Below, piece after piece: positions 35,784 to 46,235 of a DNA stretch of 64,000 nucleotides. Position numbers and translations under genes: made by a program. Within the stretch, counting starts at the first letter, position 1, and each line of letters starts with the position of its first letter. The notes under the pieces are model-generated. The model searched no databases. It had not been told where the DNA came from and saw only the letters and a program-made list of their open reading frames with translations. The stretch comes from Acidimicrobiia bacterium (GTDB taxonomy: Bacteria > Acidobacteriota > Vicinamibacteria > Vicinamibacterales > CAVVIG01): NCBI GenBank assembly GCA_016871175.1, contig VFZL01000005.1:1-64000 (forward strand), read 5' to 3'.

Positions 35784-37796
35784 CTAAAAGGTGTAATTGA
35801 GAGTGAACTGCACGTTTCGCCCTGGGATGAACGGCAGCGTCGCCGTGTTGTCCGGCGCCGTCGTCACACGGCCGAAGGCCGGTCCAGACCTCGTCGTGAT
35901 CGACGTCACCGTGTTGATGTTCAACAGGTTGAAAACGTCCACACCAAGGGCGAGACGGTGGGCGCGGTAGCGGAACTCTTTACGCGCCCGTGCGTCGAGC
36001 AGGTGGATGTTGTCGTAGTACCGAGCGCCGAGCGGCTCGACGGGGAGCACGATGGTCGGGATCTCCACGCCGCCGCGGAAGAGCACGGTGCGCTGCCACG
36101 GCGCACCGCTTCGGAGCTCATAGTTGACGGACGCCAGCACGTCGAAGGGCAGCTGGTAGGCGCCCGACGCCTTGGCACTCCATTCACGGGTGTTGTTGTC
36201 GCCTAGGAAGCGTGTGTTGGGCGTCGCAACGGCGCCCGCCACGTTCAAGCCCTGGGCACGCAAGCGTGTGTACGAGAACGAGGCCATCGCCTGCCAGCGG
36301 TTCACGAGCCGTCGACTCACGGCGAGCTCGAAGCTCCTGTATCTCGCGTCCAGCTCCGGAGCGTTCACCCTCGTGGTGGCCTGGAATGCCGTGCCGTGCA
36401 TCGACGTGGGGAACTCGTAGTAGGTGAACGACCGCCCGGTGTCATCCGCATTACCCAACACGCCGTCAGGTCCTGGGTCGCGGTTGGTGATCGGCACGGT
36501 GTACGCCTCGAACGGAATCAGCGGGTTGATCACGAACGCGTTGTTGGTGTCCTGTGAGTAGATGCCCGTCACGCGGACCGCGACGTTCGGGACCAACTGA
36601 CGCTCAAGGGACAACGAGAACTCGTCGCTGATGGGTGGCCTCTCGTCCGGATTCAGGATGCCGAGCGTGGTCCCGGTCTGCGAGACGAAGTCGGGTCCGT
36701 TCGGATCCAGGTTCGTTTCGCCGAGGTCGAAGTTGCGGTTGCCATTGAGGTCGCGCCACCGGAACGTGGTGCTGGCAATCACGTTGCGGTTCACGTAGTT
36801 CGCATCGTCTGCGCCTCGGATGGCGGCGAAGCGCCCCCAACCTCCCTTGATGACCGTTTTCCCATCCCCGGTGACGTCGTAGGCCGCATGCAGGCGCGGT
36901 ACGAACGTATCCCACGCCGTCACGTCGATGCGTGCGTAAGTCGCCGCCGGGTAGATCGACGCGAACTGACCAACAGCGTGGCTTTGCTCGGGAATGAACC
37001 CGCGGTCGAATGCGAGGCGCGCATCCAGGCTGAGTGTGAGCCGCTTGGACGGCCGCCATTCGTCCTTCACAAAGAACCCGTAGTAGTGGTCGGTGTTGCG
37101 CACGTCGACCGGGAGATTGAAGACCTGCGCCTGGAACGGCGTGCCGTTGCTGTATTGCCGTTGGTAGTTGCCGTTTGCGTGCTCGGGTGATTGGATGTTC
37201 GTGAGCCCGGCGATGAAGTCGAGCCTGCCCTTCACGTTGTGGTCACCGAGGAACCCATCCGCGGCGTACCAACTGACGGCGGCTTTCACGTTGTACTTCG
37301 TCCAGATGTAGCCGATCGGGGTGAAATAGCTCTGCGACGAGGAACCCCAGCGGGTGAGGCGGACGATGTCCTGGCTCGAGGGACCGGTGTCGAACCCGTA
37401 CTGCCAGGAGTTGAAGTTCCAGAAGCCGACGAGGGCATTGGCCAGAACGTTCGGATTGAGCGTGCCTTGCCACTCCCCCTTACCCACGTTCCCCGAGAAC
37501 TGCTGATCGAAACGGGATCCCCAGTCGATGAGCGCGCTCGCGCCAGTGATGTTACGCTTCAAGTTCCACTGGTAGTACCCGATGAACCGCTGTTTGGGAT
37601 TGATCTGGTAGGTGACCTTGCTGTTGTAGAACCGCTGCGTGAGCAGCGTTTCGCACGACGACCCATCCGGCTTCAGACAATCGAGGACGCCATTGTCGTT
37701 CACGCGCTGGCGCGCGCCGAGGTAGTACCACACCTTGTCGTGGATGGCATACCCACCGACGTCGCCCCCGAAGTCCCATCGCCGCTTGATCGGCAA
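35784..37796 (-). CDS. TonB-dependent receptor, barrel part (downstream of in-frame TAG)
   Basis: 670 residues counted from the first TTG, but the reading frame is continuous with the upstream piece: codons from 37808 onward read 'GLRGLPIKRRWDFGGDVGGY'. The content is the outer-membrane barrel of an Oar/CarboxypepD_reg-type receptor, with 'DKVWYYLGARQR', many amphipathic strands, 'RLHAAYDVTGDGKTVIKGGWGRF' and a terminal 'FTLNYTF' ending in Phe. Only one amber codon at 37809-37811 separates it from its signal peptide and plug, without which it could not reach the outer membrane. No good ribosome-binding site precedes the TTG. Confidence 0.82.
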   Translation of the reverse strand: MPIKRRWDFGGDVGGYAIHDKVWYYLGARQRVNDNGVLDCLKPDGSSCETLLTQRFYNSKVTYQINPKQRFIGYYQWNLKRNITGASALIDWGSRFDQQFSGNVGKGEWQGTLNPNVLANALVGFWNFNSWQYGFDTGPSSQDIVRLTRWGSSSQSYFTPIGYIWTKYNVKAAVSWYAADGFLGDHNVKGRLDFIAGLTNIQSPEHANGNYQRQYSNGTPFQAQVFNLPVDVRNTDHYYGFFVKDEWRPSKRLTLSLDARLAFDRGFIPEQSHAVGQFASIYPAATYARIDVTAWDTFVPRLHAAYDVTGDGKTVIKGGWGRFAAIRGADDANYVNRNVIASTTFRWRDLNGNRNFDLGETNLDPNGPDFVSQTGTTLGILNPDERPPISDEFSLSLERQLVPNVAVRVTGIYSQDTNNAFVINPLIPFEAYTVPITNRDPGPDGVLGNADDTGRSFTYYEFPTSMHGTAFQATTRVNAPELDARYRSFELAVSRRLVNRWQAMASFSYTRLRAQGLNVAGAVATPNTRFLGDNNTREWSAKASGAYQLPFDVLASVNYELRSGAPWQRTVLFRGGVEIPTIVLPVEPLGARYYDNIHLLDARARKEFRYRAHRLALGVDVFNLLNINTVTSITTRSGPAFGRVTTAPDNTATLPFIPGRNVQFTLNYTF

Positions 37797-37808
37797 ACCG
37801 CGTAGCCC

Positions 37809-38666
37809 CTAGGCCACCAACCCGGCGTCAATGTTGTTGCTGATGAGTGACGAGTTGGTGTGGGAGCCAATGAGACCGCCGTGGTACGTGTTTCCGCCAG
37901 ATTTCACGAGCATCGAGAGTTGAATGCCGCGCGTTGGAGTTTCGGCGTCGTTGCCCACCGAGCTCACCTGCGCTTCTTCCAGGCCCGAGTAGTCGAGATA
38001 CACGCCGGACTGCGATCCGCTCGAATTCGACGGTTGCGCGACCGGGATCCCTTCGACCACCGACCACGATCCGTTCGACTGGCCGAAGGCGCGGAATTGT
38101 GGAATGGCGCCCGCGGTGTTCCCGCCGACGTCGAGATTGGTTCGAGTTCCAGGGGCCTGCGTCAGAAGCGCCTGAACGCCGTTCCGGCTGGTCGGAATCA
38201 GCTCGAGCGTCTCCCTCGTCAATGCCGTCGTCGGCGTCGTCGACACGACGTCGATCACCGGCGACGCGCCCGACACCGTGATGGTCTCGTTCAACGCACC
38301 GACTTTGAGCGTGATGTCGAGCTTTGCAGTGAATCCCGCTGTGAGTCGCACGTCCTGCCGACGAACGGATTGGAACCCGTCCAGGCTGTACACGACCTCG
38401 TAGGTCCCGAGTGACAGGCCGCTCAGCCGGTATTCGCCGGAGGCTTCGGTGACGGTGCTGACCTGCTTGACCTGAAGGCTCGGGCTCGATGCCGTGACCG
38501 TCACGCCCGGGAGGACGCCGCCGCTCTCATCGGTGACGATGCCCGTGATGTTGGCCAGCGACGCGGTTTGTGAGTGACCCGGGGAGGACGTCCACAATGT
38601 GGCCGCGAGTGCGAGGGAGAGTGCGTGGGCGAACCGGAACGGTCGCCTGCACGAAGAAAACGTCAC
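37809..38666 (-). CDS. TonB-dependent receptor, signal peptide, regulatory-like domain and plug (ends at in-frame TAG)
   Basis: 285 residues from GTG 38666, strongly supported by AGGAGG 6 bases upstream. A signal peptide ends at 'PGHSQ'; a carboxypeptidase-regulatory-like domain covers about 38-115 ('ITGIVTDESGGVLPGVTVTA'); the plug region has 'LELIPTSRNGVQALLTQAPG' and 'VEGIPVAQPS'. It stops at TAG 37809-37811 after 'NNIDAGLVA'. The next codons in the same frame continue the receptor, so a CAG (Gln) to TAG change is the simplest explanation. Whole gene: 35784-38666, about 960 codons, a normal receptor length. Confidence 0.82.
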   Translation of the reverse strand: MTFSSCRRPFRFAHALSLALAATLWTSSPGHSQTASLANITGIVTDESGGVLPGVTVTASSPSLQVKQVSTVTEASGEYRLSGLSLGTYEVVYSLDGFQSVRRQDVRLTAGFTAKLDITLKVGALNETITVSGASPVIDVVSTTPTTALTRETLELIPTSRNGVQALLTQAPGTRTNLDVGGNTAGAIPQFRAFGQSNGSWSVVEGIPVAQPSNSSGSQSGVYLDYSGLEEAQVSSVGNDAETPTRGIQLSMLVKSGGNTYHGGLIGSHTNSSLISNNIDAGLVA

Positions 38667-38786
38667 CTGCCACCTCCTGTCGAAACCGACTCAGAGACGA
38701 GCCAAGTGTCGGGGATTTCTGCTCGTTACGTACGTCTTGAGGGCCGCGAATGGGGGCTGTTATACCACCAGATGGAGGGATTGCGA

Positions 38787-40390: not shown

Positions 40391-40882
40391 GTGTCTCCCG
40401 AACGCCTGCCGGTCATCGTCGTGCTGGATAACATCCGGAGCTTGTATAACACCGGATCGTTCTTCAGAACAGCCGATGGGTGCGCGATTCAACAGCTGGT
40501 GCTGTGTGGGATCACGCCAAGGCCCGACCAGGGACGGCGTCAGCAGCAGGCCATCGCGAAGACGGCGCTCGGAGCCGAGTTGACAGTCCCGTGGACCTAC
40601 GAGCCGAACGCCGTCACGGCCGTCGAGGGGCTCGCGGCCGCCGGCTATCACACCGTCGCAATCGAGCTCTCCGAGCGCGCGGTCGATTTGTACGAATGGA
40701 CGCCGACGTGGCCCGTCTGCCTCGTCTTCGGTCACGAAACGGACGGCGTGGCGTCGGCGCTCACAGAATCGATCGCCACCCACGTGCAAATCCCCATGCT
40801 CGGAACCAAGCGGTCGTTGAACGTAGCCACTGCAGCCGGGGTGGTGTTGTACGAGCTGCTGAGGCGCAGGAGGAGCGCGTAG
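40391..40882 (+). CDS. SpoU-family RNA 2'-O-methyltransferase
   Basis: 163 residues, GTG start. It is a minimal SPOUT knot domain without an extra RNA-binding domain. Motif 1 'DNIRSLYNTGSFFRTAD' near 12-28 carries the conserved Asn/Arg; motif 2 'CLVFGHETDGV' near 112; motif 3 'IPMLGTKRSLNVATAAGVVLYE' near 133 binds S-adenosylmethionine. Likely methylates the ribose of a tRNA or rRNA; the exact nucleotide is unknown (TrmH/TrmL/RlmB group). Confidence 0.9.
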   Translation: MSPERLPVIVVLDNIRSLYNTGSFFRTADGCAIQQLVLCGITPRPDQGRRQQQAIAKTALGAELTVPWTYEPNAVTAVEGLAAAGYHTVAIELSERAVDLYEWTPTWPVCLVFGHETDGVASALTESIATHVQIPMLGTKRSLNVATAAGVVLYELLRRRRSA

Positions 40883-41007
40883 GCGACCGAGCCGTGTGAA
40901 CACCCTCTCGGCCAGCGCCACTTCCCGAGGCCTGCGGCAGTCGCCCGATACAACTCTGAGCGGTCCATTTCGTCCCAGTTTGAACGGGCACACGCCCTCG
41001 ATCACTC

Positions 41008-41940
41008 GGCCGCGACGTCCACGCGTTGTTCGTCATGGGGTCGAACCCGATCGTGTCTGCACCCAATGGCCGACACGTGGCCGATCGACTCTCTTCGCTC
41101 GACACCCTCGTGGTCGCCGACTATTTCCTCTCCGAGACCGCTCAGTATGCGCACGTGGTGCTGCCGTCCGCCCAGTGGGCGGAGGAAACCGGGACGATGA
41201 CCAATCTCGAAGGGCGTGTGCTGCTTCGGCGTCTCGCGGTCGCACCTCCCGCCGGTGTGCGCACCGACCTTCAAGTCATCGCGGGTCTCGCTGAGGCTCT
41301 TGGTTGCGCTCCCGGAGTGTGCGTCGAAGACGAAGCGTCGGTGTTCGACGAGTTGCGGCGAGCCACGGCAGGAGGCGTCGCCGACCACTCGGGGATCACC
41401 TACGCGCGTCTCGATGAGAGTGATGGTATTCAGTGGCCGTGCCCAGCGACCGATGTGCCGGCATACCCGGGAACACCGCGTCTCTTCACCGAACGCTTCT
41501 ACACGCCCAGCGGCCGCGCGCGGTTCCATGCCACGCCACATCGAGAGGCGGCGGATCCGCGAGACGAGCGCTATCCACTTCTGTTGACGACCGGCCGCGT
41601 CCTGCCGATGTATCAATCCGGTACGCAAACCAGACGCGTGGAGACACTGCAGGCGGCAGCGCCCTCGGCCGTGGCGGAGATTCACCCAGCCGCCGCAGCG
41701 CGAGCTGGCATCGAGGATGGCGGGCTCGTTCGCCTCAGCACGAGGCGGGGGACCGCGACCTTCAAGGCTCACGTCACTCGCACCATCCGTGAAGACACCG
41801 TGTTCGTCCCGTTCCACTGGCCGGGCGAGCAGTCCGCGAACCGTCTGACCAATGACGCGCTCGACCCGACCAGCCGCATGCCGGAGTTCAAGGTTTGCGC
41901 AGTGCGCGCGGATGTGGAGTCCCCAGAGGTGTCGACATGA
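41008..41940 (+). pseudogene. nasA: Assimilatory nitrate reductase (NasA-like), C-terminal fragment
   Basis: About 310 codons in frame from shortly after a TGA at 40981. The sequence begins inside the molybdopterin domain: 'LFVMGSNPIVSAPNG', 'VVADYFLSETAQYAHVVLPSAQWAEETGTMTNLEGRV', and later the guanine-dinucleotide binding domain 'YPLLLTTGRVLPMYQSGTQTRRV' and 'FVPFHWPG'. Everything expected before this (the [4Fe-4S] domain and half of the cofactor core, some 400 residues) is missing; the 125 bases back to the SpoU gene hold no trace of it. Tail to head it overlaps the next gene (ATGA). Not functional as it stands. Confidence 0.82.
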
Positions 41941-43436
41941 CGCCCCATCGGGTCGTCGTCGTCGTCGGGAACGGAATGGCCGGGGCTCGGTTCGTCGAGG
42001 ACGTACGGGCCGAGCGCGCGTCTCGGCCCATCGACCTTACCGTATTCGGGGATGAGTCGGGCGGCTCTTACAACCGCATTCTCCTCTCTGGCGTGTTGGC
42101 CGGTACGCATCGACCCGACGATATCGTCACGCATTCACTGACGTGGTATCGCGACAACGGCGTCACGCTGCACGCCGGTGTGCCCGTGCGACAGGTGGAC
42201 CTCGCGAGCGGATGCGTGCTCGCCGAGGGCGATCTTCGTGTGCCGTTCGATTCGCTCGTATTGGCCACAGGTGGTCGACCCGTGCTCCCCCCTATCGAGG
42301 GACTCGAGGTCAACTGCGAGCTCAGGCGAGACGCCTTCGTGTTTCGCTCACTGCGCGATTGCGGGGCGATTGACGCCGCGGCCCGGACAGGTCGGCGGGC
42401 GGTCATCATCGGCGGCGGCTTGCTCGGGCTGGAAGCGGCGCGAGGTCTGGCCGGGCGAGACGTCGACGTCACGGTTGTCCATCTCACACCCACCATCATG
42501 GATGCCCAGCTCGATTCGACGGCGAGCCAGCTGCTCCAGCAGCAGCTGGAGGCGCGCGGCGTCCGGGTTCTCCCAGGCCAAACAACGTCTGCGATCCTGA
42601 GCGACGAGCAGGTCGGCGGGGTGCGACTGGCCGACGGTCGCGAGCTGCCTTGCGATCTCGTCATCGTCACGGCCGGCGTCCGGCCGAACACGACGCTGGC
42701 GGAGAGCGGCGGTCTCACGATCCGGCGCGGCATTCTTGTCGGGGACGACCTCGCCTGCCTGGGTCACTCGAACGTGTACGCGATCGGCGACTGCATCGAA
42801 CACCGTGGATGCACACAGGGGCTCGTGGCGCCGGCATGGGATCAAGCGTCTGTCCTCGCGGATCGTCTGGCTGGCCGCCGCCCGGACGCGCGCTACACGG
42901 GATCGAAGGTGACGACGAAGCTCAAGATTGCCGACCTCGATGTCGCAGTCATGGGCGAGAAGGACGCAGAGGAGGATGCCGATGTCGTCACCTACGCCGA
43001 ACTCTCACGCGGCATCTACAAGCGGTTGATCGTCCGAGACAATCGACTTGCGGGTGCGATCCTGATTGGAGCCGGCCCGGCGGTGCCGGCCGTCACACAG
43101 GCATTCATCGACGGCGTGCCGCTCCCAGAACCACGGTCGGAGCTGCTGTTTCCGCAGTTCGCAGACCCTGTGCCCTCGCGCGTCGAGCAGATGCCGGATC
43201 ACATACGCATCTGCGACTGCAACGCCGTGAGCAAGGCACAGCTCGTCGAGGCTGTGCTCGAGGGCGCCACGAGCCTGCGATCCGTCTGCGAACGAACGCG
43301 GGCCGGTACGTGCTGTGGTTCGTGTCGGCCAGAGGTGCAGCGCGTGATCGAGTTCGTTCGTCGCGGCCTCGATCGACCGGCCCCGCTGGCGCCGTCGTCG
43401 GCGCTTGCGGTGGAGGGACTGTCTCATGCCGGGTAG
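41937..43436 (+). CDS. NirB-like NAD(P)H nitrite reductase flavoprotein (FAD/NAD domain plus BFD iron-sulfur domain)
   Basis: 499 residues from ATG 41937, overlapping the nitrate reductase stop (ATGA). An FAD site 'VVVVVGNGMAGARF' starts the protein, with 'YNRILLSGVLAG' typical of NirB/NasB. An NAD site 'VIIGGGLLGLEAARGLAGR' is near 155, and 'NVYAIGDCIEH' near 278 closes the FAD domain. The C-terminus is a BFD-like [2Fe-2S] domain: 'ICDCNAVSKAQLVEAVLEG' near 425 and 'RAGTCCGSCRPEV' near 457. The sirohaem half of full NirB is absent, so it is probably an electron-transfer subunit for nitrate or nitrite reduction. This is the only gene of the locus that looks whole. Confidence 0.86.
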   Translation: MTPHRVVVVVGNGMAGARFVEDVRAERASRPIDLTVFGDESGGSYNRILLSGVLAGTHRPDDIVTHSLTWYRDNGVTLHAGVPVRQVDLASGCVLAEGDLRVPFDSLVLATGGRPVLPPIEGLEVNCELRRDAFVFRSLRDCGAIDAAARTGRRAVIIGGGLLGLEAARGLAGRDVDVTVVHLTPTIMDAQLDSTASQLLQQQLEARGVRVLPGQTTSAILSDEQVGGVRLADGRELPCDLVIVTAGVRPNTTLAESGGLTIRRGILVGDDLACLGHSNVYAIGDCIEHRGCTQGLVAPAWDQASVLADRLAGRRPDARYTGSKVTTKLKIADLDVAVMGEKDAEEDADVVTYAELSRGIYKRLIVRDNRLAGAILIGAGPAVPAVTQAFIDGVPLPEPRSELLFPQFADPVPSRVEQMPDHIRICDCNAVSKAQLVEAVLEGATSLRSVCERTRAGTCCGSCRPEVQRVIEFVRRGLDRPAPLAPSSALAVEGLSHAG

Positions 43437-43820
43437 ACGACCGCTCGAAGGGAGGCGCATCGGGCTCCTCGAAGCGCGAAAGCGGCTGGAGTTGTCTGCG
43501 CTCGTCACGTGAGCAGGCGGCGTGGCGACATGCGCACCAGCGTTGCGAGAGGCGCCGACTGACGTCGATCTGGCTCCCCTTCTGCGTGAGGTGACTGGTG
43601 GCCGATATGACATCGCGGTGGTGCTGACAGCGGTGGCCATGACGAGCTTGTGCGAGGCCGCCGATCACCTGGGGGTGCTTCAGAATCTGCGTGAGGCCCT
43701 CGGACGCATGATGCTCGCGTGCCGAGGGCCGAAACCACTGCTCGTGCTCCGACGTCTCGGCGCGTGCCCAGAGATCGTGACGACGCCGCCACACACCAGC
43801 ACGGAGCTCATCGAGGCGTT
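43426..43820 (+). pseudogene. hemD: Uroporphyrinogen-III synthase (HemD-like) fragment with in-frame TGA
   Basis: ATG 43426 (GGAGG 9 bases upstream) overlaps the flavoprotein's end by 11 bases. It reads 'MPGRRPLEGRRIGLLEARK' and so on to 'ALVT', then TGA at 43510-43512 where an Arg codon (CGA) fits, then continues in the same frame: 'GGVATCAPALREAPTDV', 'DIAVVLTAVAMTSLCEAADH', 'CRGPKPLLVLRRLG', 'TSTELIEAL'. These are HemD motifs, as in the siroheme-related copies placed in nitrate loci. The homology ends at about 43820, where the frame meets narK sequence, so the last third is missing. Doubly inactivated. Confidence 0.72.
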
Positions 43821-44591
43821 GACAGCGGCACCGTGCTGGCGAACCTCCTCGCCCCACGTTTCGCGGAGTCGGTCGGATGGCAAAACGTGTTCGGTTTGGC
43901 GCTCATCCCGCTCGGGTTGGTGTTCGTGCTGTTCCTCGTCGCGGCGCGTGACCCGCCGGTCGTGCCAACCGCTCGCTCGGCGCGCAAGTATTGGAACGCG
44001 ATCTCGCACCCAGATGCGCTGTGGTTCTGCGCGTTCTACTGCATCACCTTTGGTGGTTACGTCGGATTGAGCAGCTTCCTTCCTCTCTATTTGCACGACC
44101 AGCTCGAGATGTCGCCCGTGACTGCCGGTTCACTGACGGCTGCCGCAGCGTTGGCCGGAAGTCTCTCCCGACCCGCAGGAGGCTACGTGGCCGACCGTTT
44201 GGGTGGCACGTCGGTGTTGCAGGGGTTGTTCGCCGTGATCACCGTCTGCTACACCGCGCTTGCGACGTCGCCTTCGGCGGCTCTGATGCCCCCGCTGCTG
44301 CTCGTCATGATGGTCGCCCTGGGACTGGGCAACGGGGTAGTGTTCCAGCTCGTGGCGCAGCGCTTCGCGAAGGAGATCGGGAGCGTCACGGGTATCGTGG
44401 GTGCCACAGGTGGCATTGGGGGATTCTTGCTGCCGACGCTTCTGGGCGCGTTCAAGCAGGCGACAGGTTCGTGCGGGCCCGGTTTCGCCACCATGTCCAG
44501 TTTGTCGCTTGCTGCGGTCGTCGCGCTCAGGCTGTCGCAAGACCGCGCAGATGCCGCTCCGATGATCCCAGTGGCGCCGCGGGATGAATAG
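43821..44591 (+). pseudogene. narK: NarK-type nitrate/nitrite MFS transporter, C-terminal fragment
   Basis: About 256 codons starting abruptly inside a NarK motif: 'DSGTVLANLLAPRFAESVGWQNVFGLALIPL' corresponds to the conserved 'SGTVL' segment in the middle of the first half. It continues through about seven helices ('FGGYVGLSSFLPLYLHDQ', 'GSLSRPAGGYVADRLGG', 'GATGGIGGFLLPTLLG') to the natural end. Roughly the first five helices are missing. The joint with hemD sequence lies at GTTGACAGCGGCACC (43819-43833). A GTG at 43833 could start translation, but half a transporter should not function. Confidence 0.78.
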
Positions 44592-44597
44592 GAAGCT

Positions 44598-46235
44598 CTA
44601 ACGGGCTTCAGCGGCGTATTTCGCCGCGAACTCGGCTTCCATCTTCGCATCGCGGGCAACGACCGCTCGGGCCTGGTCGCTGCGCGTCTGCAGACAGTCG
44701 TGGCACACTGAACCGTCAACGACGTGACCATCGGTCGAGAGACTCCTGGCCTGCATCAACTTCCTCAACGCTGCCGCTGTGGTGAGCTGTTCTTTGTAGA
44801 AGTCGCTGTAGCTCAAGCCGTTCGCGATCGCGAGCGGCGTCCAGCCGCGTGAGTCCTTGGCATCCAATGCCGCACCCTTGCTGGCGATATACTCGGCCAC
44901 CGCCGGCACGCCCCGATACGCTGACCCGTGGAGCGCCGTCTCGCCATAGATGTTCGTGGCGTTGACGTCCACGCCCAGCTCGACGCACATCTTGACCGCT
45001 TCGAGGACCTCGTCTTCCTGGCCCGCCAGCGATCCACCGTCCTCGCCCGGATTCCAGATCATCAAACCGGAAGCGACCATCAGCGAAGTGGTGCCATCCG
45101 CCGAGGGAAGCTTGGCGTCTGCGCCGGCCTTCACGAGTGCCTTCATCACCTCGACGTCGGTGTTCTTCGCCGCGAGGAAGAACGCGGTGGCACCGAGACG
45201 GTTGAGGCGATTCCGCTGACCATCCTTCATGCCGTTCTTGGTCATGCGCGCGTTGATCTTCGCGCCTTTGGCGAGCATCTTCTCGATCACCAGAAGGCTG
45301 TCCACGGTTCCGGTGGGGATGGGACCTGGCGTCCCGAATCCGATGTTCGGCCGCCGTTCGCGAACGGCCTGATGCAGCGCGTTCCAGCCAGCGCCCGCCA
45401 GATTGGGATCGGCACCCTGATCGAGCAAGTAGTCCGCGACTTGCCAGTGAGCGTTGGCGGCGGCGACGACCAGCGCGCTCTGCCCGTCGGAGAGCGTGTC
45501 ATTGAGGTTCGCGCCCGCCTTGACCAGCTCCTGGACGGCTTGCAGCGCGCCCGCTCGAACGGCGAACAGCAGCGGCGTGAAGCCGGTGGGCTGCGGTCCA
45601 GTGAACGTGTTGCCGGACTCGGAGACGCGCCCGCCGCCGCGACTGGAGATGTTCGTTCTGGTGCTGAAGTCCGCTCCCGCCTCGAGCAGTGTCCGCACCA
45701 CGTCCGCGTTGTTACGCGCGGCGGCCCACATGAGCGCCGTTTGCCCACGGGACGTGTCCTTCGCGTTGACGTTCGCGCCCCCCTCGACCAAGGCTTTCAC
45801 CGCGTCCGCTTTGCCTGAGCGCGCGGCCGTCATCAACACTGTTTCACCTTCGGGGAGCGCCGCGTTGACCTCCGCGCCCGCACGGATCAGGAGGTTCAGC
45901 ACCGGGGCGCTGCCGTTGACCGCGGCCAGTGCGAGTGGCTGGACGCCGTACCGGTTCGTCGCCCTGGGTGATGCGCCGGCCTCGAGGAGCAGCGCCACCA
46001 GGTCACGGTCGTCGGCTTCGACCGCGTAGTGAAGGGCGGTGCTGCCGTCAGGTGTGGTCTGGGCGGTGCTACCCGGGCGCTGCACCAGCGTCCGCGCAGT
46101 CTGCTTGTCGCCGCGCTTGACCGCATCGATGAGCGACGTGTCGCCAGCCGCGAACGCGCTGACCGCGAGAGCGAAGCTCGATACACCCGCTACGCACGCG
46201 AGCCACCCGATTCGCCGAACGACTGTGCTGTGCAT
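44598..46235 (-). CDS. Exported ankyrin-repeat protein (cassette B)
   Basis: 545 residues from ATG 46235 (GAGG 9 bases upstream). The much longer open frame upstream is only a shadow of the DUF1552 gene. A signal peptide ends at 'AFAAG'. About ten ankyrin units follow, such as 'DGSTALHYAVEADDRDLVALLLEAGASP', 'TVLMTAARSGKADAVKALVEGGANVN', 'GQTALMWAAARNNADVVRTLLEAGAD' and 'GETALHGSAYRGVPAVAEYIASKGAALD'. The C-terminus adds a segment absent from the cassette A protein, with 'GSVCHDCLQTRSDQA', a CxxC that could bind metal or form a disulfide but is not a haem site. Last gene of a probable five-gene operon. Confidence 0.86.
   Translation of the reverse strand: MHSTVVRRIGWLACVAGVSSFALAVSAFAAGDTSLIDAVKRGDKQTARTLVQRPGSTAQTTPDGSTALHYAVEADDRDLVALLLEAGASPRATNRYGVQPLALAAVNGSAPVLNLLIRAGAEVNAALPEGETVLMTAARSGKADAVKALVEGGANVNAKDTSRGQTALMWAAARNNADVVRTLLEAGADFSTRTNISSRGGGRVSESGNTFTGPQPTGFTPLLFAVRAGALQAVQELVKAGANLNDTLSDGQSALVVAAANAHWQVADYLLDQGADPNLAGAGWNALHQAVRERRPNIGFGTPGPIPTGTVDSLLVIEKMLAKGAKINARMTKNGMKDGQRNRLNRLGATAFFLAAKNTDVEVMKALVKAGADAKLPSADGTTSLMVASGLMIWNPGEDGGSLAGQEDEVLEAVKMCVELGVDVNATNIYGETALHGSAYRGVPAVAEYIASKGAALDAKDSRGWTPLAIANGLSYSDFYKEQLTTAAALRKLMQARSLSTDGHVVDGSVCHDCLQTRSDQARAVVARDAKMEAEFAAKYAAEAR

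Follow-up and report, generated by a model that had tools for sequence, protein, structure and literature searches.

Within the first 64,000 nucleotides of contig VFZL01000005.1 (assembly GCA_016871175.1, Acidimicrobiia bacterium; Vicinamibacterales, CAVVIG01 in the GTDB lineage), hereafter the window, four gene pieces connected with nitrate assimilation follow one another on the + strand between about 41,000 and 44,591: nasA', a flavoprotein gene (nirB-N'), hemD' and narK'. Their order is that of an intact operon in a relative of the same family, G026 (locus L020), where nasA (693 residues), a gene for a chimera of a NirB front half with a NirA half, hemD (277 residues) and narK (~400 residues) succeed each other. 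The locus is more than a product of chance: each of the four pieces has a match to its own family, from E 1e-8 (hemD piece) to 1e-119, and they lie in the order of this intact operon. Its features are the following:

40984..41012, + strand: left deletion junction, approximate beginning of the NasA homology (three-frame translation; tblastn of nasA' against L020-L025 starts at query residues 7-12)
41000..41940, + strand: nasA', C-terminal ~310 residues of an assimilatory nitrate reductase (NF047855, PF01568, PF00384)
41937..43436, + strand: nirB-N', front half with flavin adenine dinucleotide (FAD)/NAD(P)H and BFD [2Fe-2S] domains, 499 codons (PF07992, PF18267, PF04324; alignment to L020)
43377..43433, + strand: Ala/Pro-rich scar of the presumed in-frame deletion of the NirA half (alignment; stop/start phase equal to that of L020)
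43426..43822, + strand: hemD', N-terminal ~130 codons of a uroporphyrinogen-III synthase, with TGA at 43510-43512 (PF02602 match containing one TGA)
43816..43826, + strand: right internal junction, at which the sequence passes from hemD' to narK' with a change of frame (hemD frame from 43426, narK frame from 43824)
43824..44591, + strand: narK', C-terminal ~255 residues of a NarK nitrate/nitrite transporter (TIGR00886; 62% identity to L020)

Truncation of the four genes

The initial annotation had described a decayed nitrate-assimilation operon with overlapping gene ends, and this arrangement was confirmed: the flavoprotein start and the nasA stop share four bases (ATGA, 41937-41940), hemD starts (ATG, 43426) before the flavoprotein gene has ended at its TAG (43434-43436), and the same arrangements are present in relatives. 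The nasA' piece (41026-41937) covers positions 413-705 of the 708 of NF047855 (E 1.5e-100, 337.5 bits) and is 68% identical to L020 over 304 residues, while the intact L020 NasA covers profile positions 20-707 at 849 bits, a score itself under the NasC cut-off of 1100. It begins at about residue 385 of the 693-residue G026 homologue, with homology from near 41000, and the first ~384 codons are gone; 5' of the left junction, three-frame translation gives unrelated sequence with stops in the nasA frame. The piece is therefore not a complete assimilatory nitrate reductase, the N-terminal half being absent, as had been read from the sequence at first. Equally, the early reading of a HemD with a stop and a lost end and of a NarK without its first helices agrees with the present data. 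The hemD frame is interrupted by the TGA and its 3' half is missing, the part after the stop matching positions 11-110 of the 231 of PF02602 (39.5% identity to L020), and narK' (43824-44588) corresponds to positions 163-368 of the 368 of TIGR00886, without the ~144 N-terminal codons (relative to L020; start from L020, length from L023).

The flavoprotein was initially taken for a whole NirB-like protein and the one surviving gene of the locus, and this part of the annotation has to be abandoned. Its 499 residues carry FAD/NAD, Rubredoxin_C and BFD [2Fe-2S] modules but match the NirB profile TIGR02374 only over positions 1-467 of 794, with 400.3 bits against a cut-off of 578.35, and the siroheme domain that distinguishes a NirB was not found in it (no NIR_SIR match in the domain-profile scan). 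It aligns to residues 1-497 of the 1,022-residue chimera of L020 with 61% identity; an Ala/Pro-rich tail follows its BFD [2Fe-2S] domain and closes the protein. By this alignment, the flavoprotein is only the first ~480 residues of a NirB-N::NirA chimera of which the NirA half is missing; of the two halves that define the chimera, the window holds the front one. The hemD ATG has an offset of 1 to the preceding frame both in the window and in L020, and the stop of the preceding gene follows it after 8 bases in the window and after 11 bases in L020, L021, L024 and L025. The simplest reading would be a single in-frame deletion of ~1.5 kb between the linker of the chimera and its C-terminal tail, both of which are Ala/Pro-rich in the intact chimera, as is the scar; the excision would probably have occurred between these two GC-rich, Ala/Pro-coding stretches.

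All four pieces are thus incomplete in comparison with G026. The window copy shares with the G026 operon the gene order, the nasA overlap and the hemD phase, and differs from it by the absence of about half of the ~7.2 kb of coding sequence, removed in at least three places (the nasA front; the NirA half, in frame; the hemD end and the narK front together, out of frame), and by one nonsense codon. No gene in the locus is whole, and the decay itself is real. A collapse of strain variants during assembly, the full operon being present in the organism, is conceivable for a draft genome (4.44 Mb, 85 contigs, 96.8% complete), but this would need three separate collapses plus a point nonsense mutation within 3.6 kb, and the missing NasA, NirA and NarK parts were not found on another contig, so that we regard an artefact as very unlikely. 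We propose, with high confidence, that the locus is the relic of a nasA - nirB-N::nirA - hemD - narK operon, in which the flavoprotein is most likely a drifting leftover. An uninterrupted frame of 499 residues whose FAD and [2Fe-2S] domains are cleanly recognized passes for a complete gene, but set beside the relatives it proves to be half of one; automated annotation could make the same misreading.

The NirB-N::NirA chimera in related genomes

A search of the 27 family genomes with the flavoprotein (E 1e-60) gave a match in 12, the genome of the window included. In six of them (G026, G005, G015, G002, G023 and G022; loci L020-L025) the match extends over nearly the whole flavoprotein with 52-60% identity, and the proteins run far beyond the stop of the window copy, to 1,022-1,035 residues, the L024 frame as first read having additional codons at its 5' end. 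The six are recognized as chimeras by length and alignment, and L020 also by profile: the L020 protein (L020:5696-8761) scores 532.7 bits on NirB (cut-off 578) and 541.8 bits on the ferredoxin-nitrite reductase profile PRK09566 (cut-off 594), the latter over profile positions 10-502 of 513 and residues 506-996, both scores lying somewhat under the cut-offs, which is not surprising for a chimera. The family also has a canonical NirB (L027), which reaches 881.8 bits on NirB, over the cut-off, without such a NirA match. Compared with NirB, the window protein shares the FAD/NAD, Rubredoxin_C and BFD modules and lacks the siroheme domain, and the siroheme part of the six relatives is NirA-like instead; compared with NirA, the half lost in the window matches over its length in L020, where it is fused to an NAD(P)H-oxidizing module. 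From these domains, electrons would flow from NAD(P)H through FAD and [2Fe-2S] to [4Fe-4S]/siroheme within one chain.

All six fusion relatives have nasA directly 5' of the chimera with the same four-base start/stop overlap as the window, and in four (L020, L021, L024, L025) the hemD start lies inside the end of the chimera. L020 and L023 have narK 3' of these genes on the same strand, L024 and L025 have it upstream on the opposite strand, and none was found in the available pieces L021 and L022. In G026, a second hemD-like frame (L020:2609-3580), read by eye, stands directly 5' of nasA. The comparison with syntenic regions, proposed with the initial annotation, succeeded in so far as the operon was found in relatives, but it gave no orthologous empty site in the loci compared.

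The chimera was counted over the whole order (162 genomes, E 1e-150, five best candidates per genome scored). Ten genomes gave a match, six of which are the near whole-length fusions, all in the family of the window; the others are the window itself, G020 and G009 of the same family, whose NirA-like proteins have no front half in the match, and G155, from another family, matching residues 5-616 and probably a canonical NirB. The proteins of G020 (C92, L141) and G009 (C20, L144) are 67% and 53% identical to the NirA half of the chimera, respectively, and show no NirB-front match; possibly they are donors or fission products of the chimera. A wider contig scan was limited to the best 80 of 552 relatives, of which 33 loci were examined for motifs: one, L050 (apparently the contig of L022 again), is a fusion, 31 carry the NirB motif GCPRNC, and L077 has neither motif. 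In an open-access literature search, no paper describing a NirB-N::NirA fusion appeared among the entries and abstract openings covered. NirB is also known fused to NirD, in fungi and in some alphaproteobacteria (PMC4013037).

A tree of 45 front halves (the window, 10 from the order and 34 of the 80 wider loci) unites the fusions and the window with a support of 100, the window and L020 also with 100, and the group without L022 with 90. The fusions without the window do not form a group, the fusion L022 falling outside the group of the window. This position bears on the direction of change. A short ancestral flavoprotein, to which NirA would have been fused later in the relatives, is not without precedent, as a separate flavoprotein donor stands beside a nitrate reductase elsewhere (Flp of Bradyrhizobium, PMC4724949). 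Nevertheless, the window branches within the fusion clade, with L022 outside its group at 90, and the phase of its hemD start matches that of L020. Since the window lies inside the fusion clade, it is more parsimonious to assume a loss there than a later fusion in the relatives, and we consider the ancestral state of the short form extremely improbable.

Sequence change in the remnants and fate of the flavoprotein

Changes were counted at sites where all other intact sequences agree, each relative being treated alike and the rows L026, L029 and L030 left out. The flavoprotein is changed at 42 of 211 such sites, against 11/180, 6/175, 14/183, 7/176, 6/175 and 6/175 in the six intact relatives. 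For the other pieces the counts are 12/155 in nasA' (controls 2-5 of 145-148), 17/117 in narK' (2-12 of 102-112) and 10/46 in hemD' (0-7 of 36-43). With two NirB-type relatives added (nine rows), the counts are 23/137 in the flavoprotein (others 2-7 of 116-121) and 14/107 in narK' (others 0-10 of 93-103). When the window is set against G026, the flavoprotein (42:11) has a higher ratio of changes than the housekeeping cobA-hemD gene (34:25; Fisher p 0.016), but nasA' (12:5) and narK' (17:12) do not exceed it (p 0.41 and 1.0, respectively), and the flavoprotein is not separable from nasA' (p 0.51).

Protein branch lengths for the window and G026 are 0.63 and 0.23 for the flavoprotein, 0.34 and 0.24 for nasA' and 0.50 and 0.31 for narK', compared with 0.41 and 0.32 for cobA-hemD and 0.07 and 0.10 for gyrB (the internal branch to the genus of the window being added in the controls). 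Unique changes in the window and G026, with outgroups whose comparisons are not independent of one another, are unequal for the flavoprotein (75/35, 87/29, 76/29, 84/29 and 73/39 with five outgroups; p 0.0013 to 7e-8), unequal with none of the five for nasA' (31/24, 32/25, 27/30, 36/29, 31/26) and with one of three for narK' (29/18, 28/19, 32/18; p 0.048). The controls gave 71/60, 74/57, 78/58 and 71/55 for cobA-hemD and 28/42, 27/40, 27/45 and 37/38 for gyrB. Comparison of the flavoprotein counts with those of cobA-hemD gives p 0.034, 0.003, 0.005 and 0.19, and with those of nasA' p 0.17, 0.015, 0.002, 0.013 and 0.18. There is thus moderate support for the flavoprotein as the large piece that changes fastest relative to expectation, contrary to the intact look ascribed to it in the initial annotation. 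The absence of a rate difference between nasA' and G026, together with the absence of a frameshift in nasA', fits the recent loss suggested from the sequence at first, recent meaning relative to the split from G026.

Several observations weigh against the relic reading. The flavoprotein keeps the residues of its FAD, NAD and [2Fe-2S] motifs, with GNGMAG, GGGLLG and the cysteines C426, C428, C460 and C463 unchanged. The nasA', flavoprotein and narK' frames contain neither frameshift nor stop, and codon-position G+C content is gene-like (third position of the flavoprotein 0.77, vs 0.77-0.84 in six neighboring genes). Among the nine rows, nasA' is changed at 3/82 sites, a value that the other rows bracket (0-6 of 79-85), and the changed invariant sites of the window are neither significantly more nor less radical than under a neutral model, a test that does not discriminate. 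The cobA-hemD control is itself raised (34/246 in the window, 25/237 in G026, 3-8 of 215-220 in seven others), and part of the flavoprotein excess is therefore lineage distance; as a share of sites, the flavoprotein does not lie significantly above cobA-hemD (p 0.10), whereas gyrB is not raised (window 7/456, G026 21/470). The dN/dS check proposed for the flavoprotein was run as a branch codon model, for this gene only and with four of seven foregrounds, and gave an omega of 0.043 on the window branch at 3.3 substitutions per codon, a saturation of synonymous sites at which the value is not interpretable; the foreground branches span 0.5-3.3 substitutions per codon, and omega is raised only for L025 (0.147). 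Finally, the full same-strand gene order is present in only one of the six fusion relatives, G026. It is the truncations, not the rates, that carry the case for a relic, and its odds are consequently unchanged by the cobA-hemD control.

Could selection have retained the flavoprotein as an independent NAD(P)H:[2Fe-2S] diaphorase serving a new partner, in the manner of Flp/NasB donors, while its neighbors decayed? The NirA half was removed in frame with preservation of a stop codon and of translational coupling, an AGAGG sequence resembling a ribosome site precedes the ATG at 41937, the four Fe-S cysteines and both dinucleotide motifs are intact, and 480 codons have stayed open with only two internal window-specific gaps, each the deletion of a single codon (nasA' has one window-specific insertion of three codons). 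A protein that changes fast yet in frame would fit a changed, rather than an absent, constraint. The open frame is, however, weak evidence, because in ~23% of 300 simulations 60 neutral substitutions (~40 amino-acid changes; indels not simulated) left no stop. Moreover, among the three large remnants it is the flavoprotein that exceeds G026 most (not significant relative to nasA', as given above), neither an intact NasA nor an intact NirA turned up in the genome as a partner, and the adjacent nasA', which the flavoprotein start codon overlaps, is broken. Retention as a diaphorase is on balance unlikely. A variant, in which the in-frame excision of NirA freed the donor module and fast evolution followed under a new function, a fission reversing the fusion of the family, seems to us improbable.

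By domains, the flavoprotein resembles Flp/NasB-type donors, which we understand as an FAD/NAD(P)H module with BFD and without a siroheme domain; it has these modules and no siroheme match. The intact partner reductase of such donors is wanting here, NasA being truncated with no candidate of comparable score elsewhere in the genome. For Flp of Bradyrhizobium japonicum (PMC4724949), the flavoprotein gene likewise adjoins a nitrate reductase gene and the product is proposed as electron donor to NasC; Flp works with an intact NasC, unlike the window fragment. The same source describes Flp as needed for growth on nitrate, not nitrite, and nitrite assimilation as ferredoxin dependent. Returning to the relic reading, the fragment should be unable to reduce nitrite without its siroheme/[4Fe-4S] domain, and most likely it is drifting or has only recently ceased to matter, being at best translated as a partnerless diaphorase. 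Of the suggestion that the flavoprotein is intact and may be retained, the open frame and the cofactor motifs stand; the protein is half a gene with the clearest excess of changes, and no direct support for retention was found. The model predicted by AlphaFold from a 7-row alignment (mean predicted local distance difference test score 65.8) was not used.

Nitrate genes elsewhere, surroundings and probable loss of the trait

As the initial annotation had suggested, the genome was searched for other nitrate genes, and the result supports the reading of a decayed operon: no NasA or NarK candidate of comparable score and no second copy of the missing NasA, NirA or NarK parts were found in the assembly. 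Molybdopterin-oxidoreductase matches fall on the nasA piece, on a formate dehydrogenase-N-like gene (twice) and on four further proteins; among the other molybdopterin proteins (three of five scanned, L004 and L006 left out) the best NasC score is 225 bits, vs 849 for the L020 NasA, and L006 reads like NuoG by eye. Further NarK-family matches do not exceed 32.9 bits, vs 124 for the remnant. The only siroheme-reductase matches are two domains of one 620-residue protein on contig C31, 23.6% identical to the NirA half of L020. This protein was rejected as the missing half in trans, given its 24% identity and scores under both nitrite-reductase cut-offs, although the L020 chimera is also under that of PRK09566. 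Contig C12 encodes a further HemD, intact and part of a CobA-HemD-like fusion; 26 of the 27 family genomes have a match to this fusion at E 1e-100, and the loss of the operon hemD should for this reason not matter for heme.

The formate dehydrogenase-N alpha-like gene (G000:C5:71716-73368, minus strand; L005, L031) is read in a frame from TIGR01553 position 196, with an in-frame TGA. That position presumably corresponds to the selenocysteine of E. coli FdnG, and the gene is probably a selenoprotein gene, not a broken one. About 3 kb upstream of the relic, a gene for a protein with a carboxypeptidase-regulatory domain and an outer-membrane beta-barrel (35787-38690, minus strand) contains an in-frame TAG (37809-37811) and is possibly a second freshly broken gene. 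The 5' flank of the relic is

40391..40882, + strand: SpoU/TrmH-family RNA methyltransferase gene, open (PF00588, E 2.6e-28, positions 2-142 of 142)

for which no match better than E 0.78 was found in the 16 loci searched, none being seen beside nas genes in the relatives covered. A 442-residue upstream gene, presumably fumarylacetoacetase-like, is matched at E 1e-50 by just a single further genome among the 27. On the 3' side, an opposite-strand gene (44601-46190), which from its sequence we take to be ankyrin-like, encodes a protein with 19 matches at E 1e-60 in its own genome, itself included; here and on other contigs it stands beside genes that we would call DUF1552/DUF1592-like, in a strongly expanded multi-copy cassette.

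Taken together, these data suggest that the use of nitrate has been lost in this lineage. In the ancestral operon, NarK would have taken up nitrate, NasA would have reduced it to nitrite and the NAD(P)H-driven chimera nitrite to ammonium, the operon HemD being a second copy of a siroheme/heme-pathway gene. The genus mate G025 shows no intermediate stage, with neither the flavoprotein nor nasA found at E 1e-15. At the same threshold, a relative of NasA is present in 18 of the 27 family genomes, and the nitrate trait is therefore patchy. For several Acidobacteria, among them Luteitalea pratensis (subdivision 6), putative genes of assimilatory nitrate and nitrite reductases have been reported (PMC5900883). 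The window thus adds one case of loss of nitrate use in a soil acidobacterial family with a patchy trait. Losing a nitrate operon is nothing out of the ordinary. The chimera is the more unusual feature: it occurs in 6 of the 162 genomes searched in the order and could make nitrite reduction independent of ferredoxin.

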